Of a stretch of 64,000 bases of DNA, positions 36,568-62,715 are shown one piece after another. The DNA comes from Prorocentrum cordatum (taxonomy: Eukaryota > Sar > Dinophyceae > Prorocentrales > Prorocentraceae). The stretch is from assembly GCA_963575745.1 (NCBI GenBank), contig CAUYUJ010021051.1, forward strand, positions 79,501 to 143,500. Reading direction: 5' to 3'. Positions within the stretch are counted from its first letter, which is position 1. Every line of letters begins with the position of its first letter. A program made the translations under genes and the position numbers. The notes beneath the pieces were generated by a model, which saw only the letters and a list, made by a program, of their open reading frames with translations, searched no databases and was not told where the DNA came from.

Positions 36568-37272
36568 ATGCGCGCCCCGGCGGCGATTGCGCTCGTGGCC
36601 CTGGCCGCCTCCGCGCTCGCGGCCCCGTCGCGGAGCAGCGAGGGCGCGTGCCCCAGGGGCGAATCCGGCCGGTGCGCCGCGGAGGACCTCGAGGAGGCCG
36701 GGTCGTTGCAGGCCGCGCATTCGATCCACGGCGGGGCAGACAGGATTGGAGGAAGGAGGAGCGACGCCACCACCACCAGGGGGGCCACCTCCAGCGAGGA
36801 GGTCCACGATGCCTCCCAGAGTTGGGGATGGGGAGCGACTTGCGCGAGAGGGGTGGGGGCGCACCACCAGGGGGACCCCCCCCCCGGCTCCTCGCGCCAG
36901 CGGTCCCTGGCGGTGGTGGTGTCGCTTTTCCTTATCCCTAACAGGAAGGGCGCCGGGGCGGGGCAGCCGACCCAGGCGGGCACCATGGGCGCCCCCAGGG
37001 CTAAGGCTCCAGAGAATGGTGTGTCAGAGCCCTACGACTGCGGCGAGGGGCTGTGGGACTGGGAGGAGGGCTGGACCGCCGCTAAAAAGGAGTGGTGCTG
37101 CACGAACCAGCTCCTCTGGTGCCCGGAGTGGGCGTCCCGCGGCCCGGCGGACGTGGACACCTCGTACCTCGAGGAAAAACAACATGCCGTAAACATAACT
37201 TTCGGAGGTCCGCGCGGATCTCTTGGATCGGTGCTGGACCCTCCGGAGACCGAAACACTCAACGAAAAATAG
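36568..37272 (+). CDS. Secreted Trp/Cys-rich protein with one introner-like intron
   Basis: The ATG at 36568 opens a signal peptide (MRAPAAIALVALAASALAAP). Exon 1 runs to 36743 and exon 2 from 36945. Removing 36744-36944 joins ...GGAD-R-KGAGAGQPTQ in frame. The intron is 201 nt, so the frame also stays open across it. Exon 2 encodes EPYDCGEGLWDWEEGWTAAK followed by KEWCCTNQLLWCPEW, a Trp/Cys pattern that I recall from many dinoflagellate secreted or surface proteins (not verified here). It ends at TAG 37270-37272; the tail after CPEWASRG is not clearly protein-like, so another intron may follow. Likely secreted; function unknown. Confidence 0.5.
   Translation: MRAPAAIALVALAASALAAPSRSSEGACPRGESGRCAAEDLEEAGSLQAAHSIHGGADRIGGRRSDATTTRGATSSEEVHDASQSWGWGATCARGVGAHHQGDPPPGSSRQRSLAVVVSLFLIPNRKGAGAGQPTQAGTMGAPRAKAPENGVSEPYDCGEGLWDWEEGWTAAKKEWCCTNQLLWCPEWASRGPADVDTSYLEEKQHAVNITFGGPRGSLGSVLDPPETETLNEK
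36744..36944 (+). mobile_element. Introner-like element, copy 1 (GA-AG intron)
   Basis: CAGGA occurs at both ends (36741-36745 and 36942-36946). Imperfect terminal inverted repeats of about 45 bases (36753-36800 and 36886-36934) start AAGGAGGAGCGACGCCACCA and end GTGGTGTCGCTTTTCCTTA. It ends CCCTAACAG. It aligns from donor to acceptor with copy 2 at 40972-41165, while the exons around the two copies are unrelated. The donor dinucleotide would be GA, known in dinoflagellates but rare elsewhere. Confidence 0.7.
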
Positions 37273-37680
37273 ACGAAAAAATGAAAATATCCTGGGACCT
37301 CCGGGTGCCTACCCAGAGGGTAATCGATGCAGATAATCTGCGCTAATGATCTTGGTGTCTTTTATGGTAACGTAAAACAACGCAATTTCCAAACATGTTT
37401 CGCCGCAGTTTTTATAATAAAGCGACGCAGTTCTATAGCAAAAACGACGCAGTTTTGTTGTTAGCATGTCATCGTAACAAACGTCACAGTTTCTTCGACA
37501 TAAAACACCGTGGTTATTGTGTGTCATGGTGCATTTATAATGATATCATCTCGCGTTCGGGCACAGCGTCCGTTATAGCACACGCGCGTTATCATGATCG
37601 CGCTCTCCCCGCGCTCTGGATAAATTTGCTATATAGCATATCTACGTATAGACAACACTGTGTATATACGCACTTATCGA
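37273..37680. other. AT-richer island, no gene
   Basis: A clear drop in GC with ACGACGCAGTTTT-like repeated words (37405-37500). No sustained frame. Confidence 0.5.
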
Positions 37681-37764
37681 GTGCGGGTCCCGACTCTCGA
37701 AGGATTATTCTTCGAGTTCGAAATTTCCCCGAGGTTCCCGCTGGGATTTGGATCTGGAGCATGT

Positions 37765-38065
37765 AGGTCCTGAGAACCGACGTCCGGAGACTTTGGGTCC
37801 GGAGACTTTGGGTCCGGAGAGTTTAAGCCCAGAGGATGTAGGTCCGGAGACTCCAGATCCAGGCAAAAATCCATCGGCTCCCTTTATACAGCTCCCAGAA
37901 TTCCCGCTGGGTTCCCGCTAAGTTCCCGCCAGGTTCCCGCTAACTTCCCGCTAGGTTCCCGCTAAGTTCCCGCTAGGTTCCTGCTAAGTTCCCTCGATCA
38001 AGGGTCCCGCTAGGTTCCCGCTGGGTTCCCGTTGGGTGCCCGCTGGGTCCCCGCTGGGGCCCCTG
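37765..38065. repeat. Two adjoining minisatellites (15 bp and 11 bp)
   Basis: GGGTCCGGAGACTTT-type units at 37780-37862, then TTCCCGCTAGG/TTCCCGCTAAG 11-base units at 37910-38055. Confidence 0.85.
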
Positions 38066-38101
38066 GGATATTCATTATTTCTTTATGGGTTCCTGGTGTA
38101 C

Positions 38102-40196
38102 GAAGACGCCTACGGCGAATCACCGCCGCCCCCTGCCTTTGTGGAAGCGCCCATGTGGCCGAACGTTGAGGCCAGACCTGCCAAGCCATCGGACCATGTG
38201 TTCCCCGAATCGGTTTGGAAAGCCTTCGGGGAACACGTGGGCGTCTTGATGGTCATCGTCGCCGTCTTGGAGGCCTCTTGGGCGATCTTTCGGCGATCTT
38301 TGGGGGCTCTTGGGCCGTCTCGGGCCGTCGGAAGGCCGAAAAAAGGGAAATGCCCAAATCCATCAAAAACCTTGGGAAAATCAGTGATTTTGGCATCTTT
38401 TGGCCTTCCTGGAGGCCCTCTTGGGGGCCTCTTGGGCCCTTTTGGGCCAGCTTCGAGCCAACTTCGGCCATCTTGGTGGGTTCCTGGCACGTCTGACGCC
38501 GTCGGGAGCCGTTTTGGGGGCCTTTCTGGGCCAACGGGGGACCCTCTTGGGGCGCTCCAGGGCCGTCTTGGAGGCCATCTTGGGCGTCTTGGAGGCCATC
38601 TTGGGCGTGTTGGAGGCCTCTTGGGCCCTCTTGGGGCCCTCTAGGGGCCATCTTGGAGGCCACTTGGGCCATCATGGGGCTCTCTTGGGGGCCTCTTGGG
38701 CGATCTTGGGGGCTTCTTGGGCCGTCTCGAGCCGTCGGAGAGCCGAAAAGGCGCAAATGCCAGAATCCTTCAAAAACCAAGGAAAAATCAATGATTTTGG
38801 CCTCTTCGGACTCTCCTGGAGGACCTCTTGGAGGCCTCTTGGGCCGTCTGGGAGGCCTCTGGGGGGCCTCTTGGGCCGTCTTGGGCCGTCTTGGACTCTC
38901 TTGGGCCGTTTTGGAGGCCGTCTTGGACCATCTCGGGCGGACTTGGAGGCCATCTTGGGCCATCTTCGCGATTTTTTGAGGATGTCCCGAGCGAAACGGC
39001 CGTTCTTGGAGGATTTTTTGCGGTCGTTGAGCACGTTTGGGGAAATTCCGGGTGGCCGGCGGGTTCTGCCGGAGCCCACTAGGAAGTTCTTTTGGAAAAA
39101 GAACCAAAACCAAAACCTGAAACGTCCAGCACGCCGTGCACCCCTGCAAGCAGGGGGCGGCGGATATCGAAGACGCCTACGGCGAATCACCGCCGCCCCC
39201 TGCCTTTGTGGAAGCGCCTATGTGGCCGAACGTTGAGGCCAGACCTGCCAAGCCATCGGACCATGTGTTCCCCGAATCGGTTTGGAAAGCCTTCGGGGAA
39301 CACGTGGGCGTCTTGATGGTCATCGTCGTCGTCTTGGAGGCCTCTTGGGCGATCTTTCGGCGATCTTTGGGGGCTCTTGGGCCGTCTCGGGCCGTCGGAA
39401 GGCCGAAAGAAGGGAAATGCCCAAATCCATCAAAAACCTTGGAAAATCAGTGATTTTGGCATCTTTTGGCCTTCCTGGAGGCCCTCTTGGGGGCCTCTTG
39501 GGCCCTTTTGGGCCAGCTTCGAGCCAACTTCGGCCATCTTGGTGGGTTCCTGGCACGTCTGACGCCGTCGGGAGCCGTTTTGGGGGCCTGTCTGGGCCAA
39601 CGGGGGACCCTCTTGGGGCGCTCCAGGGCCGTCTTGGAGGCCATCTTGGGCGTCTTGGAGGCCATCTTGGGCGTGTTGGAGGCCTCTTGGGCCGTCTTGG
39701 GGCCCTCTAGGGGCCATCTTGGAGGCCACTTGGGCCATCAGGGGGCTCTCTTGGGGGCCTCTTGGGCGATCTTGGGGGCTTCTTGGGCCGTCTTGAGCCG
39801 TCGGAGAGCCGAAAAGGCGCAAATGCCAGAATCCTTCAAAAACCAATGAAAAATCAATGATTTTGGCCTCTTCGGACTCTCCTGGAGGACCTCTTGGAGG
39901 CCTCTTGGGCCGTCTGGGAGGCCTCTGGGGGGCCTCTTGGGCCGTCTTGGGCCGTCTTGGACTCTCTTGGGCCGTTTTGGAGGCCGTCTTGGACCATCTC
40001 GGGCGGACTTGGAGGCCATCTTGGGCCATCTTCGCGATTTTTTTAGGATGTCCCGAGCGAAACGGCCGTTTTTGCGCACGGTGGCGGGTTCTGCCGGAGC
40101 CCACTGGGGAGTTCTTTTGGAAAAAGAACCAAAACCAAAACCTAACAGCTCGTCCAGCACGCCGTGCACCCCTGCAAGCAGGGGGCGGCGGATAAT
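38102..40196. repeat. Tandem duplication of a ~1.07-kb unit
   Basis: Unit 1 (38102-39168) and unit 2 (39169-40196) both begin GAAGACGCCTACGGCGAATC and both end GTGCACCCCTGCAAGCAGGG with a GGCGGCGGAT tail. Identity is near complete. Unit 2 lacks about 45 bases present at 39003-39055 and has scattered changes. The interior is mostly the GGGCCGTCTTGGAGGCC minisatellite family. Many open frames on both strands are artefacts. Confidence 0.95.
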
Positions 40197-40409
40197 GGCC
40201 TTCGGCTCATCCCGCCACCGTGCCTGGGTTGTGGGTCAGAGGGCTCTCGAGTGTTCGCTGGAATCTCGTGGTAGTTCTTTCTGGGGCCTTTTGGAGGCAT
40301 CAGGAGGCGAGGGGGGGCCCCGGGGACGGAGGACTCGAAAGAGGTGATGTGGAGCAGCAGGGGTCGCAATGAAAGACGAGGAAAGAAAAATATGATATAA
40401 TCTCCTCGG

Positions 40410-40745
40410 CACTCCTCCCGCCTCCTCCGTCCTCCCAACTCCTCCCCACTCCATCGCGCTCCTCAGCCCTCCTTCTCATTCTCCCTCCATCGCACTCCTC
40501 GGCACTCTTCCCCACGCCGTCGCAATCCTCGGCGCTCCTCCCCACTCCACCCGCATCCCGACTCCTCCCCGCTCCATCGCGCTCCTCGGCACTCCACCTC
40601 GTTTGCACTCCATGGCACTCCTCGGCTTTCCTTGGCACTCCCCCCCGCGCCATCGCAATCCTCGGCGCTCATCCCCAATCCTCCGGACTCCTTGGCGCTC
40701 CTCGGCACTGCTCCCCACTCCATCGCGCTCCCGCCCGCCCCCTCA
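40410..40745. repeat. CT-rich minisatellite (CTCCTCGGCACTCC units)
   Basis: Imperfect units combining CTCCCCACTCCATCGC and GCTCCTCGGCACTC, repeated about ten times just upstream of the 40801 start codon. Confidence 0.8.
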
Positions 40746-40800
40746 CTCTTATCGGCAATGTATCCAGCGATTTTGCATCGGGCGCTCAGTAGAGTGAGCA

Positions 40801-43800
40801 ATGGTGCGCGGTCGTGCCGCATGGCTTGTCGCGGTGCTTGCGTGTGTGACACTGTCCGACCGCGCGGCCGCAGACAGCGACGCCGTCGCTGCGCAGGCCG
40901 TCCATTGCGATGATGCCAGCGTCGACTGCACCGCGGACGCGCCGGAAGAAGGTAGCCTGCTCCAGCACAAGGCTCGGGGGAAGGAGAAGCGACACCAACG
41001 CCACCAGGGAGGCCACCTCCAGCGAGGGGGCCACGATGCCTCCTCGAGCTGGGGATTGGGGATGTCTCAAGCGAAAGGGGGACCAGACCACCAGGGGGAC
41101 CCTTTCCGGCTCCTCGCGCTGGTGGTCCCTGGTGGTGTTGGAGTCGTTTTCCCTTGGTTCTAAAGGCCACGGCCCTCAGCAATTCCTCCGCGGCCCAGAC
41201 TCCCTGGAAAAAAATCTATGTCATACGGCACGCCGAACGTTGGGGGGAAACAAGTTGTTTGAACGAGTGCGGGTGGAACAGGGCCTTTCAGTACGCCGAG
41301 AAGTTCAAGAATTGGGATATATTCAAGATTTATTCCTTCAATTATCCAGCTGCCTGTGGCAAGTTCCGCCACCGTGCCAGCCCAGTCCCGTAGGTGGCGG
41401 CTGTTCGCATGATAGTGATTATGATGATGCTGATGACAATGTTGCTGGTGATGATGACGATTTTTCATCAGCATGAGGGGCTATGATGTTACGAACGGTG
41501 ACTGCGTGCATGCACACAACTCGGGGTTCGAGGTAGTTTACAGCATGAAAACATGTGGAACCCGCAAAATAAAAGTCCTTACTGCGTGTGGCGTGCTGGC
41601 ACGGTGCTCTTTCTAGCGCGTGCTACAGGGCCTAGCGTGCCCCACGGCGACATAGTTTTGCGAAACAAAAACTCGGCAGCCTTCAGATCGGTTTCCTCGT
41701 CGTCTGGGAGACTTCCTCGGGCCTCCTGGGTCGGTCCCGTTTCGGGGTCGTCGGGGTCGGAACTCGAGAGAGGGGGAGGCTCGGGAGGAGGAGCGGGGAT
41801 CGTGCTGGCCAGAATTTCCCCTGGCACGAACCGAATCACTCGCTGGCTAACGTGTCTAGCCACAGGCTCAGCTCCTCCTCCAGCCACCCAGGCGGGGTGA
41901 TCCCCAGGTGGCTTTTGATATTCCCCTCGGCTGTGATTGAGGTGATGAGGTCGGTGCGGAGGGTCCAGCGCGGCGTCACGACCAGCAGCTTCGTCATTTC
42001 GTCGTTGCACTTCTCGATCTTGATCATCGTGACCTGTTCCTCTAGCATTTTTTTCTTGACCTCGGTGGCCTTGTCTTCGCTCGGCTGGGCCTTGTCCAGG
42101 TAGTCGTGGAACATGTTCTTGTCGCCGCCGCCGATTTCGAGCGAGCACATCGTCTCGACGAGGCGTAGCGCCAGGCTGGCGGTCGGGCTGTCCACGGTCT
42201 TCAACTGCAGCTTCTGATCTGGGGTTCCGTGGCACAGCTTCTCGATGTGGGTCTTGAGTTCGGCGGTCGCCGAGGTGATCAGCTGGTGGTCGCGGCTGGT
42301 CCAGGTCTTCTGTGTGGGCTGTCCGCGTTGGCGTCCAACTCCGTGGCATACTTTGCGTCTGCGGTCTCCCTGGTCCTGTTCCTCGGAGTCGTCCACGATC
42401 TGCCCGTCCTTGTCCTCGTCCTTCGGGACTGCGGCCCCTGCGGCCCCCTTCTGCTTGGCTTGCGGCCTGTTGTCTCCGTTGGCGCCGCTTCCAGAGTTCC
42501 CAGACGCCTGGGAGGATACCACAGGGAGGCGCCAATTGGCTCGTGTCGTCGCTGGCTTCTGCGCGCCCGTGGGCACCATCTCGTTGTCGAAGAGGGACGG
42601 GTACGACTGGAGTAGTAATCACCAGCTGAGGGGCGTTGGCCAAGGATGAAGCAACAGTACTCGCTGTGGTAGCTGTCGGTCGTGGTCGGGCTGTCCGTGT
42701 CGAGGTACTTGTCGAAATGGACGTACGTGTAGGCCGGCTGCAATAAGCGGCTCGAAGCTGATCTCGTAGTTCAGCAGTGTCTTCAGGTTCCCACGCCGCT
42801 CGTTTCTCAGAGGAGTGGTTAGAGATATGCGTAGGGGCTTAGTGCCAGACGGAGTCAGCGGAATGTGATCGGCAAGGTGCTTTCAAAATTCGCGAGGATC
42901 GTGATAAATTTCGTGACGCTCGGGCTTGTCGCTGATATTCGCTAACTGGCATCGAGTCGCACCCGACGGCTTCCATTCGTACAGGTGATGCGTTGGTTCG
43001 GGGATGCATCTATTCGCTTTCCCGGACCTTTTGAAGATGATGTTGGCAGTGATCGACGCATGAGAATACTGTAGAGCAGTTGAGACACATATTGTCTATG
43101 GTGATGGCATTGATAATGGTAGTACGCCCGTGACCAGGCGCAGACGAGTGGGTCTGATGAGTAGCAAGACGATGGACGGTAGGGAACCTCGCTTTACATT
43201 TTCCGACCGTGCATCGAAACAGGGCTAACAGCTCGATCTCGCTGTCCGTATCGCCCATCTCCTGATCAACGGAGGGCACATCGTTAGCCATCTGGCCACT
43301 TGGGGCCCACTGGCTGCTCACGTACGTGCTGCGGAACACGTGCATATCACATGCTAAAAAAGCCTGGCGTACATGCTCGTCACGGAATAGTGCTTCCATA
43401 GTCGGAGGGCCCCATTCCTCCTGAAAAGTGGCTCCCGCGGGGTGGTCCCGTAGTTGATGTAGGTCATGATGCAGTTGGGCCGCCCATGGATGTACACCTG
43501 CATCGGCTGGTAGTCGGTCGTGTCGCAGTGGTGGCGACGAGGCTGGGCGACCGTCGGCTCTGGCATTGATCTCAAAGGTGTAGTCGCCGAAAAAAGCCGC
43601 CAAGAATGGAGCGTGATTGTCCGGGTCATTGAAGATAATTTTCCACCAGTTAAGCCGCCTGATCATTAGCTCCGCTGCGGTCGGTGCGAGTTACCATTCG
43701 CGAAATACTTGAGCCGTCTTCCAGCTGCGATGTGTTCCGTCGTCTCTTTATTGATGAGCTCTTCCCAACAGCATAGCACGCATTTTTTTTGGGGGGTTAG

Positions 43801-46800: not shown

Positions 46801-48571
46801 CCAAGGTGCAGCGCGAGGAGCACTCGTGGCCGCACCGCCATGCTAGGCCATCTCCTGGGGCGAGCGTGCTGAGCGGAGGAAGGCGAAGAATGGGCGGAGG
46901 CCACTGCGCCTGAACGGATCTGAGCAGTCCGTGGCCTTATGATGACGACGATGACGATGACGACGACGACCATGAGGAGGAGGAGGAGGAGGAGGAGGAG
47001 GAGGAGGAGGAGGAGGAGGCTGGGCTGGCGCTCGGCCAGCGTTGGGACTGGCTGCAACTTGCCGACTTTGTCTTGGACGTCGCACAGGTGGACTGGGGAT
47101 ATGGAGGACGAAATGGAAGGCTGTGACATGAGACGCCTTTTCGTTTCCATTTCTTGAGGATCTTTTATAGATCTAGCTCATATTGGGCGGTTTGAGAACC
47201 GTCCGGGGCTCCTGTGGGGCAGTCATGGGAGCCCTTTTGGGGCCTTCTTGGGCAGTGGTTAGGCCTCTTGGGCCGTCTTGGGGCTCTCTTGGGCCGTCTT
47301 GGGGCCGTCTTCGCCGTCCGGAGGGTCTCTTGGGACGTTTTGGGGCTGTCGAGAGGCCGTCTTGGGTGTCTCCGGGCGCCATCGTGGGCCAGTTTGAAGC
47401 TCTCTTGGGGTGTTATGGCCCGTATATGAGCCTTCTTGGGCTTTTTCTGAAGCAATGTTGGACGCCTCCTAGTTCATCTTAGAGCTCGATTGGGCCCTCT
47501 TGGGGCGATCCCGGAAGCCTCTTGGGCCGTCTTGACCTAACGGAAGTCCGGAAACGTGAGGATCCAAAAACCAATGAAAAACGTTAGGAAATCCATTGTT
47601 TCTTGCTCGGAGGCTCCTCGTAGAGCCCTGTGAAACCGTCGTGGGGGGTTTTCTCGGCCCTCTTGAGGCAGTTTTGGGCCGTCATGGGGCAATTTTGGGT
47701 TCTCTTGGAACCATTTTCGGCCGTTTTTGAGGCATGTTGGACCATGCTGGCGGCTTGGATGGCCATCCTGGGCCGTTTTGGAGCCTTTGGAGAGCCCCAG
47801 GGAAATGCAATGGCCGCCCAGGGACCCCCAAAAGTAGGGCCGATTCAGTCGACGAAGCGCGACGAGCGGGGGGGGGGTCCCTTAGAAGATTACAAAAACC
47901 CTATCAGGACAGCACTTGGCATTCTTCCACGCCTCAACATGCCAAGGGGCACGGTTGCGGACCAGTATTACCGGTTGCCCGGGCAACCATGCCAACGCAC
48001 CGCCCAAACAGCTTCTTGGATTGCGGCGTACAAACATTTAAAGATCGAGTACATTGTATGCGGGTTGCCGCCGGCCTCCATGAACAAGGGTAATCGGGAC
48101 AGGACGATGGAGTATTATCAGGACAAACAGATGGCGAGCCGATTGCGATGGGATGTGAAGAACGACGCCTCTGGCATGAAGTCAGGGCAAATAATTTTGG
48201 TTTTCTGGGAGCACGAGAACATTATGAACTTGATCCCTGCCCTGTGCAATCAAAAAGTCGCTTGGCCGGGTGATTCATACGACGCTTACGTCGAGGTCCT
48301 CTACGGGCAGCAGGGGGGGGCGTGGCATCATCAGTATGCCACACTGAAGAGCTGGGGTCTCCAAACCCTCAGCATCTCCGGACAAGACGCAAACGCTGAG
48401 ATGTGCTACCAATGCTCCGAGACCAACAACCCCCCCATTGCCGGCGCTCCTGCAACCAACCCCGATCGTGTGAGCCGCCGCCGTTATGGCTGCCCGTTCT
48501 ATACGATGACTGATCAGAAGTACGCCTATGCCCAGGACGTTACGAAAGATCTCGGAGTGTGTCCTCGCTGA
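40801..48571 (+). CDS. Secreted histidine-phosphatase-like protein, split by a LINE-filled intron
   Basis: Exon 1 (40801-40971) encodes a signal peptide (MVRGRAAWLVAVLACVTL) and ends GSLLQHK. Exon 2 (41166-41358) reads on in frame as ATALSNSSAAQTPWKK, then IYVIRHAERWGETS, where RHAER is the phosphate-binding His-Arg signature of the histidine phosphatase superfamily. It ends IYSFNYPAAC at a GCAAGT donor. Exon 3 (about 47913-48571) holds LPGQPCQRTAQTASWIA, equivalent to the second Arg region, and ILVFWEHENIMNLI, which carries the second catalytic-type His, then a C-terminal YGCPFYTM tail and TGA. The acceptor at 47911-47912 fits the phase, but others are possible. These enzymes remove phosphate through a phospho-His intermediate; the substrate is unknown. 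The middle intron is about 6.5 kb and contains a minus-strand LINE. Confidence 0.65.
40972..41165 (+). mobile_element. Introner-like element, copy 2 (GC-AG intron)
   Basis: 194 nt. AAGGC lies at both ends (40969-40973 and 41163-41167, AAAGGC at the 3' side). Terminal inverted repeats: 40981-41025 (AAGGAGAAGCGACACCAACG...) against 41108-41150 (...GGTGGTGTTGGAGTCG). In both copies GCGAC starts exactly 17 bases after the donor, and the acceptor follows GTCG by about 23 bases. Excision gives a perfect in-frame join between the signal-peptide exon and the RHAER exon. Confidence 0.8.
41579..42646 (-). CDS. Unknown protein, possibly retroelement-derived
   Basis: Minus-strand frames 42579-41836 and 42643-41579 overlap. 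The first reads as a globular acidic/basic protein (TSATAELKTHIEKLCHGTPD, LRLVETMCSLEIGGGDKNMF, ITPPGWLEEELSLWLDTLASE) after a Gln/Lys/Asp-rich N-terminus. It continues in the other frame as VIRFVPGEILASTIPAPPPE. It lies directly downstream of the LINE in the same orientation. No domain recognised. Confidence 0.35.
   Translation of the reverse strand, partial: SLANAPQLVITTPVVPVPLRQRDGAHGRAEASDDTSQLAPPCGILPGVWELWKRRQRRQQAASQAEGGRRGRSPEGRGQGRADRGRLRGTGPGRPQTQSMPRSWTPTRTAHTEDLDQPRPPADHLGDRRTQDPHREAVPRNPRSEAAVEDRGQPDRQPGATPRRDDVLARNRRRRQEHVPRLPGQGPAERRQGHRGQEKNARGTGHDDQDREVQRRNDEAAGRDAALDPPHRPHHLNHSRGEYQKPPGDHPAWVAGGGAEPVARHVSQRVIRFVPGEILASTIPAPPPEPPPLSSSDPDDPETGPTQEARGSLPDDEETDLKAAEFLFRKTMSPWGTLGPVARARKSTVPARHTQ
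43010..43666 (-). CDS. LINE C-terminal segment with C2H2/CCHC-like fingers
   Basis: 218 codons following the RT. The end holds CTVGKCKARFPTVHRLATHQ with a further His eight residues on, and MCLNCSTVFSCVDHCQHHLQ. These two Cys/His groups look like zinc fingers; LINE C-termini often carry such nucleic-acid-binding modules. Part of the middle is off-frame. Confidence 0.55.
   Translation of the reverse strand: MIRRLNWWKIIFNDPDNHAPFLAAFFGDYTFEINARADGRPASSPPLRHDRLPADAGVHPWAAQLHHDLHQLRDHPAGATFQEEWGPPTMEALFRDEHVRQAFLACDMHVFRSTYVSSQWAPSGQMANDVPSVDQEMGDTDSEIELLALFRCTVGKCKARFPTVHRLATHQTHSSAPGHGRTTIINAITIDNMCLNCSTVFSCVDHCQHHLQKVRESE
43666..44824 (-). pseudogene. LINE reverse transcriptase, broken frames
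   Basis: RT finger region (VVAIGKKNKEPSGDEIYDIN, then FAAPAWGYGGIRQRRREE) is read at 44824-44600. The motif A equivalent RNAFATGDHSMLFQ is at 44540-44490 in a second frame. GDSSEPELFMAAFYRGVEAW and the catalytic FIDDL box (motif C) are in 44370-43666, followed by a thumb-like region (VYNLIHLGGLISAAGSNYAD). Motifs are complete but spread over at least three frames, so no active polymerase is expected from this copy. Confidence 0.7.
45064..46656 (-). CDS. LINE ORF: apurinic-type endonuclease domain and linker
   Basis: 530 codons. Endonuclease/exonuclease/phosphatase-fold motifs in order: VPIMFSDMNLRFG (metal-binding Asp-Asn of the 'GDFN' type), NSRIDYFVAP (the 'SRIDY' motif) and LPVIGHVPMIMEV (terminal His region). 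The N-terminal Glu motif is less clear. This enzyme nicks target DNA to prime reverse transcription. After residue ~300 comes a basic helical linker (WVTEAKAERAQLLRQRAQRC) leading to the RT. The frame ends off-course near 45150, where the RT leader continues in another frame. Confidence 0.7.
   Translation of the reverse strand: MDVILTPGTKIRSRAGTRHHKERTQHRIWFTLDGRELRGQMLAQVAALDCHDVSTESGTSFASCRPRHISRDEQAASTFIVGHTECATSSRISHRARTSPRTNTSGRKQCLQLWRWILHQFKTTPERTVPIMFSDMNLRFGIHGSQSCADASIGPCQAGPEDDLAQRLQTDMLAHELCAVNNYWNLGPSYYGAKGSNSRIDYFVAPTSLMHATNRMVMGWHASRRLRTLPVIGHVPMIMEVRISAPEQYRDPNQPRWDWGMLAACLQQEHQRREFFQDRREQYDHHRARLTRLTADAKPTRHAAVVGYIIKHTAKKYFARESHAPTWVTEAKAERAQLLRQRAQRCAAWNGSGATRRPQRPATTVRTDLRRVSQQLKLFRRWYNYWWRTSVGDQLREAWAVRDLARVGHLARLRAGTRAGIKRRSYMSVAAVRPRGEAFLTALAKPATEGGMSATQHPASIYLEDAYIDKLLLTPVEDIAQFGPVQCGATQTVRRHPDRLGQRHGRSRVHEETHLGQQAQTVQSWVVMAG
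46935..47022. repeat. GAC then GAG microsatellite
   Basis: GATGACGACGATGACG passes into (GGA)n, giving short Arg- or Pro-rich frames. Confidence 0.9.
47200..47780. repeat. GGGCCGTCTTGGGGC minisatellite family
   Basis: Degenerate 15-20-base units of CTTGGGCCGTCTTGGGG, ending in a looser stretch up to about 47780. Same family as 19085-19475 (opposite strand) and 38230-40060. Confidence 0.8.
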
Positions 48572-51428: not shown

Positions 51429-54400
51429 TCATTGGATTTCCCCAAGAGCTCCTCGTAGGTGAGTCATCTTGCTCTCCGTAAGCTTCTCGTTTCGCTGCTT
51501 CCGCCATTCGCTGGCAATGGGAATGTCCTTGATGTTGTCGATGAACTCCTTCTGGTGGATCGTAATTCGTCCAGACGTGTCCTGATAGACCCAGAGTCCG
51601 GTCTGCTTGAACTCTCCTTCCTCCCAGGGTGTCCATCTGAATGCTTTCTGAAGCTTCGTTTCGATCTCTATCCAGCGCTTGCTGCTGTCACCCGTGATCA
51701 GGAAGTCGTCCACATGCGTTCCTACGATCCCAAAGATTCCATCTTTGTCGCTAAATACCCATACACAGGGGTCAGATACGCATCGTTGTCCTCCGAGCTG
51801 CTCCATTAGTGCGTCCACACTATCGTACCAAGACTTTGGTGCTTGACATAGGCCATATACTGCTTTTCGCAATCTTACCAGAGCACCCATAGGTAATCCG
51901 AGTTCCTTTGCGAGCTCCTCGTTGGCTGCGATGAATACCGGCTTGTCTTCTGGTAGCCCCTTGCCTTGTAGGAAAGTTGCCTTGACGTCGCCCTTCTTGA
52001 GCCTCCAGGCCTTCATGGCGGCGAGCTGGAAGATCATGTTCCTTGCCCGTCTCGTCATCGTGGGGGATGCCACCGGCTCCTCACCCAGTCTGGGATCTTG
52101 GTATCCTAGAACAACGAGTCTGGCCTTGGCTCGGCTGCTTCCAGTCGCTTCATCCTTCTTCCAGGTGAGCACCCATCTGGTCTTCAGCACGCCCTCGGGC
52201 TTAGGCTTGAGATGTGGCGGAAGTCTCTCCAGTACGTCGTTCGCGATCCAGTCGCGCACCTCGACTAGCTTTGCCGCCTTCATCAGAACCTTCTGCTCGC
52301 TCGTCACGTGCTTGACGCTGGCCTTTGTTCTGCCTTTCTTTAGGGCCTTGCTCACGCATCGTTCGGGCTGCCTACAGAGTTTCCCGAGAGCTGCTCCGTC
52401 AGCTGCTTCAAAGGCCACTTCGATAAACTCCGTTCCGACGGGTATCGAGATGTCCTCTGCCAGCTCTGTCGCTGCGCACGCGCTCAGGTCGAAACTATTC
52501 CAGTCCAGCTGGTCCCAGCCCGCAGCCTTTTCATCGCAGAACGTGCCGCGCGCTCTGAGTGACGGTCCGAATGGTGTCTGCATGCGTATTCGTCTTTTTG
52601 TCTTTTCGAACAGGTCGGCCTGCTTCTTTCTTTTCCCAGATTCGGCCTGCCGGCTCATGTTTAGCAACTTCCCCTGATTCGTGACGAGAGGCGGGTCCAT
52701 CTCGGTGTCCACCATGAGGTCCGGATCATCTCGGTTTCCCACTGCCACTCGAACAGCTTCGGTCGTGTCCCCGTCATGGACAGGTCCTGGAGAATCGGAA
52801 CGGTTCAGAGGCATGGCCCCCGAGCCCGTTGCTCCACCTGATGGTGTAAACGTATCGAGGGGGTTTTCTCCTCCGGCCGCTACCGGCGCATCTTTCCCCT
52901 CACTTGTGTCTCGTTGCCTAAGGAAGAAATACGTTTTCCCAGTCCAGCGCCCCTTCAAGGATCTCTGCGTTTGTCGGTGTGCCTTCCAGTTTTCGTCCCT
53001 GACGGTTTCCATCGACTCGTCCTCGAACTTAGCTACCGTGACCCCTTCCATCGTCGCCCCTTCGATCGAGGCCTTGTATCCCTCCGGGGCAAACAGCGTG
53101 GTCCGGTTCCGAAGATGCACGCGAACATACGCTCTTCGGCCTTCGAATTCTTCTTCAGTCCAGTAGTCCTTGAGATCGCTGTCGTCTGGGGCCCTCGCTG
53201 TCGCCTCGGGAGTGTAAGTCTCCTCGTGCATCGGTGCGTCCTCCTTGTCCACGCCGATCACTTCTCCCTTATTGAGGTGATTGAGCGCCTCCACGAACGA
53301 CCAGGGTGTTCCGTTTTCCTCGGTGAAGATCTCCTCTTCTTGTGGGCTGGCGGCGCGTAGTTGTTCAGGGGCACATCGCCACAATCTGGTTCCCATAACA
53401 ACCCACACTTTTCGAGCTGGTTGGGGACTCTCCCCATTAGCCCGCACAGTCTGCACACCTAGCACGGCGCCAGGTCCGAACCGTCGTCCACGATCAACTC
53501 CGCGTTTCTTCTCCAGGGCGTGGTGGTTCGCCATCTTACCGCACCTCCAGACACATACCAGCATGCCTGGAACGAACTTTTGAATTCGTTGTTCCCGCGA
53601 TGCGGCCGCTCTCGCCTGCTGTTGCTTGAGGATCCTGTCACCGATGATCTTCGTTGCGAGAACACGCTTGGATAGATTGTCCATGTAGCTCTGATTGGAG
53701 CATTTCACGATATCCAAATTGTCATCTTTGGTGAGTGTCCCAGACCAGTTCTTGTCTCTGCCGAATGCCCACTGCGTTGGGCAATAGCCGTCCACCCGTT
53801 CCACCGTGTTGTGAGCTTCCACTGCTTGGTGCACAGCCGCCTCCAAGTCTGTGTCGTGATCCTTGTGTAGAGATCTCGCGCAGTCGTTGATGGTCTTGAT
53901 GGCTCTCTCGGCTATCCCGTTCTGCCAGTGTGCTTGTGTCGCGCATGGATCCAGCATCACTCCTTCACCGGAGACGCTTTCGAAGAGTTCGTGTGACACA
54001 AACGCTCCTTCTGGATCCTGACGTAGCACGGCAGGCATACCGCATCTGTCTGACCAATGCGCCCGAAAGGCTTCCAACGGCTCTTTTGTGGCACAGTTCC
54101 TCGACTCGGTACTTGGACAGCTCAGGATTTTCACCGCGAGGGTGAACTTGCTTGCTTCGTCGACAATCACCAGGTACTTCCGTTTGATGTCGTCGTTGCC
54201 CACAATCTCCTTCACGTCCACTCCGACTACTCGCCAGAGGTCCCGAGCTGGTTCCAGTACAGCGGTTGGTCTCGGCTTTGTCGCTTGGCTTGCGATACAG
54301 GCGCTGCATTTGATCTGCTTCACCGCTGCGACGGTTGCAGCTGTCGCTCCACGTCGCCGTAGAATTCGGACCATCACCCTTGGAGGTCGATGTCCGGTAT

Positions 54401-54899
54401 TGCGATGTAGGCGCATGGCTGCCTTCATCAGCTCGTTCTGCTTCAGCGGCTCCAGCTTGTTCCACTCACTCTGTTCTTCGGCCGTGAGCTCCAGCTTCTT
54501 TTCAGTGTCGCACATTTCCGCCTTGGCCCCTGCGAGCGCCGTTTCCTCCGTCCGGAGCTCCCCAATGAAGCCCGTGAGATTCGGCGGGTCCACTATATTA
54601 CTATATTCTTCCAGATCAGCTTCGCCAGCTGTTTCGGATCGCGCCCTGATTCCGTAGCGTCTCTTCCACAGCATTCTCAGTGTCCGTGACCTTCGGGATC
54701 TGAAAATCTTTTGCCTCGCAGAACCGTGACTAACTTCTTCCTGCTGGTCCATGCGGTCCAAGGCTTGTAGAGAGGCGCCCCGCTGCGGTTGACCGACCCA
54801 ACCTGGCAGCCGTCGAAGTTGGCCTTTTCCATTCCCACCTCGCCGAAGAACATCATCAGCTGAGGGAACATCTTCCAGCCGTGACAGTTCCGGGGCCAT
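51429..54899 (-). CDS. Copia integrase and reverse transcriptase
   Basis: The first ~100 codons (to about 54600) are off-frame. Then, in order: an H2C2 zinc-binding segment (RLHRNTGHRPPRVMVRIL, CSACIAS); the integrase core with DVKEIV, VLRQDPEGAFVSHELF and HWQNGIAERAIKTIND (D-D-E-type); a long linker; and RT with LKTRWVLTWKKDE, KARLVVLGYQDPR, YGLCQAPKSWYDS and the catalytic box GTHVDDFLITGD (VDD). It stops at TGA 51431-51429 after ALGEIQ, where TGG (Trp) would be expected. The same frame continues as VATRTLPRYQAQCSIFQS. Confidence 0.85.
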   Translation of the reverse strand: MAPELSRLEDVPSADDVLRRGGNGKGQLRRLPGWVGQPQRGASLQALDRMDQQEEVSHGSARQKIFRSRRSRTLRMLWKRRYGIRARSETAGEADLEEYSNIVDPPNLTGFIGELRTEETALAGAKAEMCDTEKKLELTAEEQSEWNKLEPLKQNELMKAAMRLHRNTGHRPPRVMVRILRRRGATAATVAAVKQIKCSACIASQATKPRPTAVLEPARDLWRVVGVDVKEIVGNDDIKRKYLVIVDEASKFTLAVKILSCPSTESRNCATKEPLEAFRAHWSDRCGMPAVLRQDPEGAFVSHELFESVSGEGVMLDPCATQAHWQNGIAERAIKTINDCARSLHKDHDTDLEAAVHQAVEAHNTVERVDGYCPTQWAFGRDKNWSGTLTKDDNLDIVKCSNQSYMDNLSKRVLATKIIGDRILKQQQARAAASREQRIQKFVPGMLVCVWRCGKMANHHALEKKRGVDRGRRFGPGAVLGVQTVRANGESPQPARKVWVVMGTRLWRCAPEQLRAASPQEEEIFTEENGTPWSFVEALNHLNKGEVIGVDKEDAPMHEETYTPEATARAPDDSDLKDYWTEEEFEGRRAYVRVHLRNRTTLFAPEGYKASIEGATMEGVTVAKFEDESMETVRDENWKAHRQTQRSLKGRWTGKTYFFLRQRDTSEGKDAPVAAGGENPLDTFTPSGGATGSGAMPLNRSDSPGPVHDGDTTEAVRVAVGNRDDPDLMVDTEMDPPLVTNQGKLLNMSRQAESGKRKKQADLFEKTKRRIRMQTPFGPSLRARGTFCDEKAAGWDQLDWNSFDLSACAATELAEDISIPVGTEFIEVAFEAADGAALGKLCRQPERCVSKALKKGRTKASVKHVTSEQKVLMKAAKLVEVRDWIANDVLERLPPHLKPKPEGVLKTRWVLTWKKDEATGSSRAKARLVVLGYQDPRLGEEPVASPTMTRRARNMIFQLAAMKAWRLKKGDVKATFLQGKGLPEDKPVFIAANEELAKELGLPMGALVRLRKAVYGLCQAPKSWYDSVDALMEQLGGQRCVSDPCVWVFSDKDGIFGIVGTHVDDFLITGDSSKRWIEIETKLQKAFRWTPWEEGEFKQTGLWVYQDTSGRITIHQKEFIDNIKDIPIASEWRKQRNEKLTESKMTHLRGALGEIQ

Positions 54900-60999: not shown

Positions 61000-61180
61000 C
61001 ATCTCGGAGCCCAGAGTTGCGAGGATGTCTCCAGCGTAACAGGCTGGACCACCTCGCGAGCGGCATCTAGAACCCCAGAGTTGCGGCGATGTCTCGGGCG
61101 AAACGTGCTGCGAGGAAGTCTCAGGCGAAACAGGCCGGACCACCTCGAGCGCGGCGTCTCAGAGCTCCGAGTTGCAGGGG
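61000..61180 (+). repeat. Outlying copies of the 64-bp repeat
   Basis: Monomers with GAGTTGCGAGGATGTCTC, CAGGCTGGACCACCTCGC and GGCGAAACGTGCTGCGAGGA, including truncated units. Confidence 0.85.
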
Positions 61181-61189
61181 CCTCCTGGG

Positions 61190-61885
61190 GCCTCTTGGGG
61201 ACAGCACGGGCGCCAGCACGGAGGCTGGAAGAAGAAGTGAGCTGCTTCTTTTCGCGATGTAAGCCCGTCCAGCTCGGCCTCAGACTCTGCCCATTTTGAT
61301 GGCGGGTCTGGCGCATTTGAAGAATGCGCCCAGGGCAACCGCAATTTGATCGGTCAAACTGGCGCGCGCGAGTTTCTCTGCGAATAACCCGCGAATCCAG
61401 GCGTAGCTGGAGTGAGGGATTGTGTGCATAGTTTTCTGCAGAGTTCTGTGCTCTGCGGCTTGGGTCCGCTTGATCATTTCGAGTGGGCTCTGGGGTTGCC
61501 GTCGTGTGAAGGCCCCCTGGCAGTTCCTGACTCGGTGTCCTCTCATCCTGTGGCCTCCTGGACCCTACCTGGGGCTTCCTGAAGCCTCTTGGGGTTCCCA
61601 GGGTGGGATATCTAACATGTGGCCGTCGGGGCCCCCCAAAATGGGGGGGCCACAAGAGCAGGAAAAATCAACGAATCGGCACCGGATGTGTATTAACTTG
61701 ACACGTTCTGATAAGGGGCCTCCTGGGGCCTCCTGGGAGCCTCCTGGGAATCTCCTGGGGACCCCTGAGGCCTGTCCTGGGCGTCCTGCGGCCTCCTGAA
61801 GCTTTCTGGGGTCTCCTGGTGCTCCCAGGGTCCCAGGGGGAATATGTAACATGTAACATGTGGTCTTCTGGGCCCCCAGGCTGGA
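61190..61885. other. Spacer with two related GGCCTCCTGGGG-rich segments, no gene
   Basis: 61555-61640 and 61715-61880 share GGCCTCCTG, CCCAGGGTGGGATAT/CCCAGGGGGAATATG and TAACATGTGG, so one derives from the other. The remaining part has no protein-like frame. Confidence 0.6.
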
Positions 61886-62715
61886 CCACCTCTTGGGCGG
61901 CATCTGGGAGCTCAGAGTTGCGAGAATGTCTTGTACGAAACGGGCCAGACCACCTCGCGCACGGCATCTCGGAGCCCAGAGTTGCGAGGAAGTCTCTGGC
62001 GAAATGGGCTGGACCACCTCTTGCGCGGCATCTCAGAACTCAGAGTTGCGAGGATGTCTCAGGCGAAACGGGCTGGACCACCTCTTGCGCGGCATCTCAG
62101 AGCTCAGAGTTTCGAGGATGTCTCAGGCGAAATGGGCTGGACCACCTCTTGCGCGGCATCTCAGAGCTCAGAGTTTCGAGGATGTCTCAAGCGAAACGGG
62201 CCGGACCACCTCGCGCACGGCATCGGGGAGATCAGAGTTTCGAGGATGTCTCAGGCGAAACGGGCCGGACCACCTCTCGCGCGGCATCTTGGAGCTCAGA
62301 GTTTCGAGGATGTCTCAGGCGAAATGGGCTGGACCACCTCTCGCGCGGCATCTCAGAGCTCAGAGTTTCGAGGATGTCTCAAGCGAAACGGGCCGGACCA
62401 CCTCGCGCACGGCATCGGGGAGATCAGAGTTTCGAGGATGTCTCAGGCGAAACGGGCCGGAGCACCTCGCGCGCGGCATCTTGGAGCTCAGAGTTGCGAG
62501 GATGTCTCAGGCGAAATGGCCCGGACCACCTCTCGCGCGGCATCTGGGAGCTCAGAGTTTGGAGGATGTTTCAAGCGAAACGGGCCGGACCACCTCTCGC
62601 GCGGCCTCTCAGAGCTCAGATTTAGGAGGATGTCTCAGGCGAAACGCTCAATCCCGGACAACTCAGAAACGAGAGTTTCGAGGATGTCTCAGGCGAAACG
62701 GGCCGGACCACCACA
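61886..62715 (+). repeat. 64-bp tandem array with 192-bp higher-order units
   Basis: GTTGCGAGG/GTTTCGAGG anchors at 61981, 62045, 62109, 62173 and 62237 give a period of 64. A variant monomer with CGGCATCGGGGAGATCAGAG recurs 192 bases apart (about 62217 and 62409), so three monomers were copied together. 64 is not a multiple of three, and the open frames are artefacts. Confidence 0.95.

Follow-up and report, generated by a model that had tools for sequence, protein, structure and literature searches.

The window analysed here, a stretch of 64 kb of DNA, contains two proposed genes whose signal-peptide-like first exons are each followed by a short element, i1 in gene 1 and i2 in gene 2 (Table 1). 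The two elements are homologous (78.5% over 186 nt, E 5e-38 by blastn in the window), and lie at non-homologous positions in unrelated genes, where we infer them to be introns. The original prediction had placed two introns at these coordinates and described them as alignable along their length, both of which were confirmed, as were the motif GCGAC 17 bases past each donor and the shared ending CTAA(C)AG; i1 starts CAG|GATTGG and finishes CTAACAG|G, and i2 starts AAG|GCTCGG and finishes CTAAAG|G. Exon 2 of gene 1 shares 40 of 65 residues with the metagenome protein P0002. No protein relatives of gene 2 were found at E≤0.001 or at E≤1, and in Pfam it gave only a Fam20C match below the cut-off (16.4 bits against 26.8). 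Gene 2 also contains IYVIRHAERWGE, which is suggestive of a histidine phosphatase motif; assignment to the histidine phosphatases is not proposed, as sequence searches of Pfam, NCBIfam and PDB gave no such match. Downstream, gene 2 may have a further exon in an open frame at 47624-48571, part of which is P0005.

Table 1. Positions in the window of the two proposed genes, the elements within them and the repeats of each element
Feature	Position	Strand	Basis
Gene 1 exon 1: ATG, signal-peptide-like start (by eye), ends ...CAG, phase-2 junction	36568..36743	+	translation; P0001
i1 left direct repeat CAGGA, putative target-site duplication, with GA donor	36741..36745	+	
i1, proposed GA-AG intron, 201 nt	36744..36944	+	alignment, shuffles, TIR scan, direct repeats
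i1 element proper, 196 nt	36746-36941	+	
i1 terminal inverted repeat, left arm	36753..36781	+	
i1 terminal inverted repeat, right arm	36905..36933	+	
i1 right direct repeat CAGGA, with AG acceptor	36942..36946	+	
Gene 1 exon 2, to stop; Cys-rich YDCGEGLWDWEEGWTAAKKEWCC stretch	36945..37272	+	P0002 identity
Gene 2 exon 1: ATG, signal-peptide-like start (by eye), 57 codons, phase-0 junction	40801..40971	+	translation
i2 left direct repeat AAGGC, with GC donor	40969..40973	+	
i2, proposed GC-AG intron, 194 nt	40972..41165	+	alignment, shuffles, TIR scan, direct repeats
i2 element proper, 189 nt	40974-41162	+	
i2 terminal inverted repeat, left arm	40981..41010	+	
i2 terminal inverted repeat, right arm	41126..41155	+	
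i2 right direct repeat AAGGC, with AG acceptor	41163..41167	+	
Gene 2 exon 2 frame (...KKIYVIRHAERWGE...), open to TAG at 41391; exon 3' end provisional	41166..41390	+	

Both elements carry imperfect terminal inverted repeats (TIRs), which without gaps span 29 nt at 86% in i1 and 30 nt at 83% in i2; the length of about 45 bases originally predicted holds for i2 when gaps are allowed (about 47 columns) but not for the ungapped repeats of about 30 nt. The TIR score of each element was reached by none of its 1000 shuffles. In a scan of 10,716 AGG-AGG pairs with a spacing of 90-400 nt, tandem repeats excluded (4,562 on the plus and 6,154 on the minus strand), with full scoring for pairs sharing a 7-mer between their ends, i1 and i2 were the top two TIR candidates at 38 each, and the sole other pair scoring at least 30 scored 30. 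Each element is also predicted to fold as a hairpin, with whole-element z values of -6.0 and -4.7 that become -3.5 and -3.4 when 20 nt of flank are included on each side. Between the copies, 3 of the 62 predicted hairpin pairs are changed on both sides; a comparison of just two sequences does not suffice to make a case for selection acting on an RNA hairpin.

Each element lies between 5-bp direct repeats with the pattern NAGGN, which hold both of its splice sites; CAGGA at i1 and AAGGC at i2 are placed equally relative to these sites. On their own the direct repeats are weak evidence: among the 1,582 AGG pairs in the window lying 150-250 nt apart, at least 5 bases are shared in 20% and at least 6 in 8.7%.

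Blastn recovered two copies of the element in the window and no third, all other matches there being at most 38 nt, the elements' own arms aside. No transposase family appeared in 22 window-derived Pfam queries, covering 18 of the 131 ORFs of at least 150 aa. A 20-nt core, GGATGTCYCRRGCGAAACGG, is present in i2 with one mismatch and also in a 64-nt satellite and a duplicated 1-kb repeat, with 18 matches in the window when as many as 3 mismatches are allowed, against 0.09 expected. The score of i2 against the satellite stretch was 51, compared with a maximum of 40 in 500 whole-sequence shuffles; when shuffling was restricted to the flanks of the core, 29 of 500 reached it, and the score of i1 against the satellite was shuffle-like (reached by 288 of 500). 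We thus rejected a derivation of the satellite from the element, as clear sharing is limited to the short core and neither the flank shuffles nor the i1 score support a common origin of the whole unit. Element patterns were located at 0, 4 and 2 loci in viral contigs and at none in genome contigs. The six viral loci had been picked for holding the best-match pattern, and blastn of i1 and i2 against them gave no match above 33 nt (best E 5e-5 over 23 nt), so that we count them as chance rather than as relatives; the core motif was absent from the viral contigs, and phage records gave no match. The dinoflagellate spliced-leader sequence was not found in the window when as many as 3 mismatches were allowed, and a shorter part of it had one match with one mismatch, equalled in 20 of 100 shuffles. 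By its G+C content, donor types and AGG acceptors, the host is probably a dinoflagellate.

The likeness of i1 and i2 could in principle be fortuitous in a G+C-rich window that is full of tandem and G+C-rich repeats (125 rows), but their local score is 172, whereas none of 1000 dinucleotide shuffles of i2 exceeded 37, and they are collinear over their full length; the shuffle test refutes chance or low complexity, which we consider practically negligible as an explanation. Their similarity ends at the proposed splice sites, and this also bears on gene duplication or exon shuffling, by which a second gene would have received a copy of a signal-peptide exon together with its intron, followed by divergence of the exons. 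As expected from such a copy, each intron comes after a signal-peptide-like exon, the two have the same orientation with 4.0 kb between them, and a similar EE-GS(L)LQ stretch can be recognised by eye ahead of each. However, the intron would need to have outlasted both exons. Homology extending into the exons was looked for and not seen: for the four pairs of exon flanks the observed scores were reached by 251, 402, 186 and 227 of 500 shuffles, and the proposed products of gene 1 and gene 2 gave no BLASTP alignment at E≤100, bearing out the claim that the surrounding exons are unrelated. The intron phases also differ (2 for i1, 0 for i2), which favours independent insertions. Duplication with exon divergence was rejected on these grounds and appears very improbable.

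A less remote alternative is that i1 and i2 represent ordinary MITE-like insertions that escape splicing always or some of the time; i1 would be an in-frame coding insert of gene 1, whereas i2 would break gene 2 and make that gene a decayed copy. At 201 nt, i1 is a multiple of three and open in the frame of gene 1, which thus offers no reading-frame evidence for an intron; by a rough estimate, nevertheless, some 10% of G+C-rich sequences of this kind would combine an open run of 67 codons with a length divisible by three. The sole near-identical database protein, P0001, has the same start as gene 1 (94/95 identity) and continues 36 residues into i1, indicating that i1 is unspliced in P0001, although P0001 may derive from DNA, from pre-mRNA or from a transcript that retained the intron. 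When the spliced products served as queries, among proteins of 0.55 to 1.75 times the query length with shared short words, no spliced relative was found, nor any orthologue that crosses either junction and lacks the intron. In gene 2, the removal of i2 is required to join the signal peptide with the exon-2 frame, which has an upstream stop at 40953 and no ATG between 40953 and 41166; that this frame itself ends in a TAG at 41391 and gave no relative in the searches is compatible with a broken gene. Against unspliced insertions, both elements have GA or GC donors, a pyrimidine-rich stretch ahead of the acceptor and the ending AG|G, like the dinoflagellate introns described in PMC10666404. On balance we regard unspliced or partly spliced MITE-like insertions as unlikely.

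We consider it likely that both i1 and i2 are old copies derived from a single introner, a MITE-like element whose insertion creates an intron. The original prediction of an introner pair is partly supported: TIRs, direct repeats, differing phases, unrelated exons and a homology confined to the interval between the splice sites all agree with it, whereas the unspliced P0001 at i1, the weakness of the direct repeats on their own, the failure to find a third copy of the element, a relative of gene 2 in the searches above or the spliced leader in the window count against it. The introner would be a short, non-autonomous, DNA-transposon-like element of about 190-196 nt, with imperfect TIRs of 30-47 nt and a foldback along most of its length, which may have entered NAGGN sites in independent events, in two genes that are unrelated but both have signal-peptide-like starts and are probably those of a dinoflagellate. 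Insertion would have duplicated 5 bp, CAGGA in one case and AAGGC in the other; because the duplicated target contains AGG, its left copy would supply the donor (AG|GA, AG|GC) and its right copy the acceptor (AG|G), leaving only the pyrimidine-rich stretch ahead of the acceptor as the element's own contribution. Splicing at both G|G positions would then remove the element and exactly one target copy, restoring the original frame. With only two copies, about 21% diverged, there is no sign of recent activity.

A further proposal, which we put forward as doubtful, is that the introner family functions in either orientation and that i1, being open in frame and read into in P0001, may be a facultative intron doubling as coding sequence. 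A purine-rich TIR would provide a pyrimidine-rich stretch at whichever end is 3' (pyrimidines make up 68-77% of the last 22 bases when either TIR end is read as the 3' end), and with the NAGGN target yielding both splice sites, any insertion at AGG could become an intron. The introner phenomenon has already been reported in dinoflagellates, and the pair described here would be one more example. If the family proves multi-copy, the GC and GA donors and AGG acceptors of dinoflagellates could be tied to one cause, namely the insertion of elements at AGG, with the duplicated target furnishing the donor as well as the acceptor.

Introner families are described as ranging from 5 to >2,000 copies per family and genome (PMC9860276), and those from five dinoflagellate genomes are attributed to Roy et al. 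2023, Curr Biol, in a review (PMC11453091). As described, family 1 of the dinoflagellate Symbiodinium microadriaticum resembles i1 and i2 in its TIRs and in short target-site duplications that supply the donor, but has 4-bp duplications and a 3' splice site on the element (Gozashti et al. 2022, PMC9860276), whereas the 5-bp repeats here hold both splice sites. The bookkeeping proposed for i1 and i2 is that of the Florenciella introners, another organism, in which both splice sites come from the insertion site according to the legend of Fig. 2E (PMC9860276). The introner elements of Amoebophrya, reported as mostly among non-canonical introns, share with i1 and i2 inverted repeats, direct repeats of 3-5 nt over the exon-intron borders and a hairpin fold (PMC7789003); the present pair differs in its dinoflagellate-type GA and GC donors and in inverted repeats that are imperfect and longer than the 8-20 nt given for Amoebophrya. 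In Prorocentrum cordatum, introner elements with inverted and direct repeats at both intron ends were found by a pattern search that looked, within 30 bases of the intron ends, for direct repeats of 3-5 nt together with inverted repeats of 8-20 nt (PMC10666404). The direct repeats of i1 and i2 fit this pattern; with longest unbroken inverted runs of 8 nt in i1 and 10 nt in i2, about 24-40 nt from the ends, the fit as described there hangs on the mismatches tolerated. The same source gives for this dinoflagellate a genome G+C content of 59.7%, 51.4% GC and 23.8% GA donors, and 79.7% AGG acceptors; donors and acceptors like those proposed for i1 and i2 are thus common there, which speaks for the introner reading. 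By this description i1 and i2 resemble the P. cordatum elements in having inverted and direct repeats at both ends, and the G+C content and donor use are alike.

The two stretches for which the original prediction proposed an introner pair (transposon-like elements that create introns on insertion) are present in the window as it described them, one in each of two genes with signal-peptide-like starts (i1 in gene 1 and i2 in gene 2). They are alignable from donor to acceptor (78.5% across 186 nt), with a local score of 172 against a maximum of 37 among 1000 dinucleotide shuffles. This similarity vanishes outside the proposed splice sites: in the four pairs of flanks the observed score was reached by 251, 402, 186 and 227 of 500 shuffles. 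Homology extending into the flanking exons was thus looked for with shuffle-level scores only, and the proposed products gave no BLASTP alignment at E ≤ 100, in keeping with the exon unrelatedness claimed from the start. A third copy was not found in the window by blastn or nhmmer with both elements as queries; apart from the elements' own arms, remaining blastn matches span at most 38 nt, and the next-best nhmmer match (E 0.008) falls in the satellite near 62 kb. Pattern scans of viral_contigs and prokaryote genomes (six loci retrieved) yielded no relatives, as expected because these collections are not made of dinoflagellates.

Coordinates of the paired elements and of other features in the window
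Feature	Position	Strand	Length	Remark
i1	36744-36944		201 nt	proposed intron of gene 1
i1 element proper	36746-36941		196 nt	CAGGA taken as target duplication
i2	40972-41165		194 nt	proposed intron of gene 2
i2 element proper	40974-41162		189 nt	AAGGC taken as target duplication
Tandem repeat, two copies	38101-40143		~1 kb each	
Open frame	47624-48571	plus		possible later gene 2 exon; contains QIILVFWEHENIMNLIPAL in second half
Open frame	51429-54899	minus	1156 aa	Pfam RVT_2 reverse transcriptase domain, E 4.7e-22
Satellite array, 12 copies	61879-62646		64 nt each	contains core GGATGTCYCRRGCGAAACGG
Core GGATGTCYCRRGCGAAACGG matches	38980, 40046, 41060, 61023-61133, 61988-62701			

Terminal inverted repeats (TIRs) of about 45 bases had been predicted for both elements; ungapped repeats measure only 29 nt in i1 (86%) and 30 nt in i2 (83%), but that of i2 reaches about 47 columns when gaps are allowed. 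The TIR score of each element was reached by none of 1000 of its own shuffles. As a selection control, 4,562 plus-strand and 6,154 minus-strand AGG-AGG pairs spaced 90–400 nt were scanned with tandem repeats excluded; those with a 7-mer common to both ends were fully scored, and near-duplicates were merged. The top two were i2 and i1, at 38 each, and the sole further candidate at or above 30 scored 30. The pair output for i1 was 36752-36948, a few bases off the proposed borders, so that its exact borders rest on the alignment with i2 and the direct repeats. Owing to the TIRs, each element is predicted to fold into a single long hairpin (z -6.0 and -4.7; -3.5 and -3.4 when the adjoining 20 nt at either end are included); between the copies, 3 of 62 consensus pairs are altered on both sides, a count too small to judge.

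Direct repeats lie at equal offset around i1 (CAGGA) and i2 (AAGGC), and these putative target duplications contain both splice sites in each case; the elements proper begin with T and end with A. By themselves the direct repeats are weak evidence: among 1,582 AGG pairs forming the window background, at least five bases are common in 20% and at least six in 8.7%, the i1 repeat having six (ACAGGA). Pyrimidines make up 68–77% of the last 22 bases in either copy and either orientation.

The gene 2 reading frame favours predicted removal of i2, because the unspliced frame has a stop near the i2 end and the exon-2 frame, which has an upstream stop at 40953, lacks an ATG between 40953 and 41166; removal would link the signal peptide with that frame. 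Gene 2 has no relatives at E ≤ 0.001 among 31 candidates or at E ≤ 1 among 1,124 candidates, and no Pfam family above the cut-off. The plus-strand open frame is possibly a later exon of this gene past an intron of about 6.5 kb; its best PDB sequence match has E 0.28 or worse, and searches of Pfam and NCBIfam to E 1 gave no family. The gene 1 frame is neutral on intron status, since i1 is open in frame over its 201 nt, with zero stops. With the spliced gene 1 product as query, a database search at E ≤ 10 gave four proteins (P0001–P0004). A metagenome protein, P0002, is identical to exon 2 at 40 of 65 residues, which supports the exon-2 frame. The best match, P0001 (EukProt, named Pyramimonas sp.), shares 94 of 95 residues with gene 1 read without splicing, a stretch that includes 36 residues within i1; if its source molecule was RNA, i1 would have been retained there. 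Pyramimonas is a green alga, and to meet its name on so close a match suggests that the EukProt data set and the window's organism are cross-contaminated.

The gene 1 junction is in phase 2 and that of gene 2, after a 57-codon exon 1, in phase 0. These differing phases and the unrelated exons argue for two separate insertions of i1 and i2 rather than one inherited intron, and as the copies are about 21% apart, the insertions are probably not recent.

The 20-nt core GGATGTCYCRRGCGAAACGG was found in at least three kinds of repeat, i2 among them, with 18 window matches at up to three mismatches against 0.09 expected. Copies of the ~1-kb repeat share three aligned blocks at 97–99% identity and a fourth, gapless, at 82%; by eye, its ends resemble short inverted repeats (GCCGCCCCCTGC / GCAGGGGGCGGC), and a search for inverted repeats of at least 60 nt found none. 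The RVT_2 domain is of the kind seen in Copia-type retroelements; no direct repeats of at least 60 nt were found around its open frame between 48500 and 57000.

G+C by 2-kb bin ranges from 0.48 to 0.71, with the majority near 0.6, and together with the proposed GC and GA donors and AGG acceptors this agrees with the values given for Prorocentrum cordatum, the putative host (PMC10666404). The dinoflagellate spliced-leader sequence was not found in the window. Passages of PMC10522408 and PMC11782384 contain nothing on the i1/i2 family. For Polarella glacialis, a review gives a figure of 12,253 introner introns (PMC11453091). Symbiodinium introners have TIRs and target duplications (PMC9860276), Amoebophrya introner elements have inverted and direct repeats (PMC7789003), and P. 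cordatum elements with both repeat types were found by pattern (PMC10666404). Introners bearing such repeats are already in print, and i1 and i2, compared by description, would belong to this known kind.
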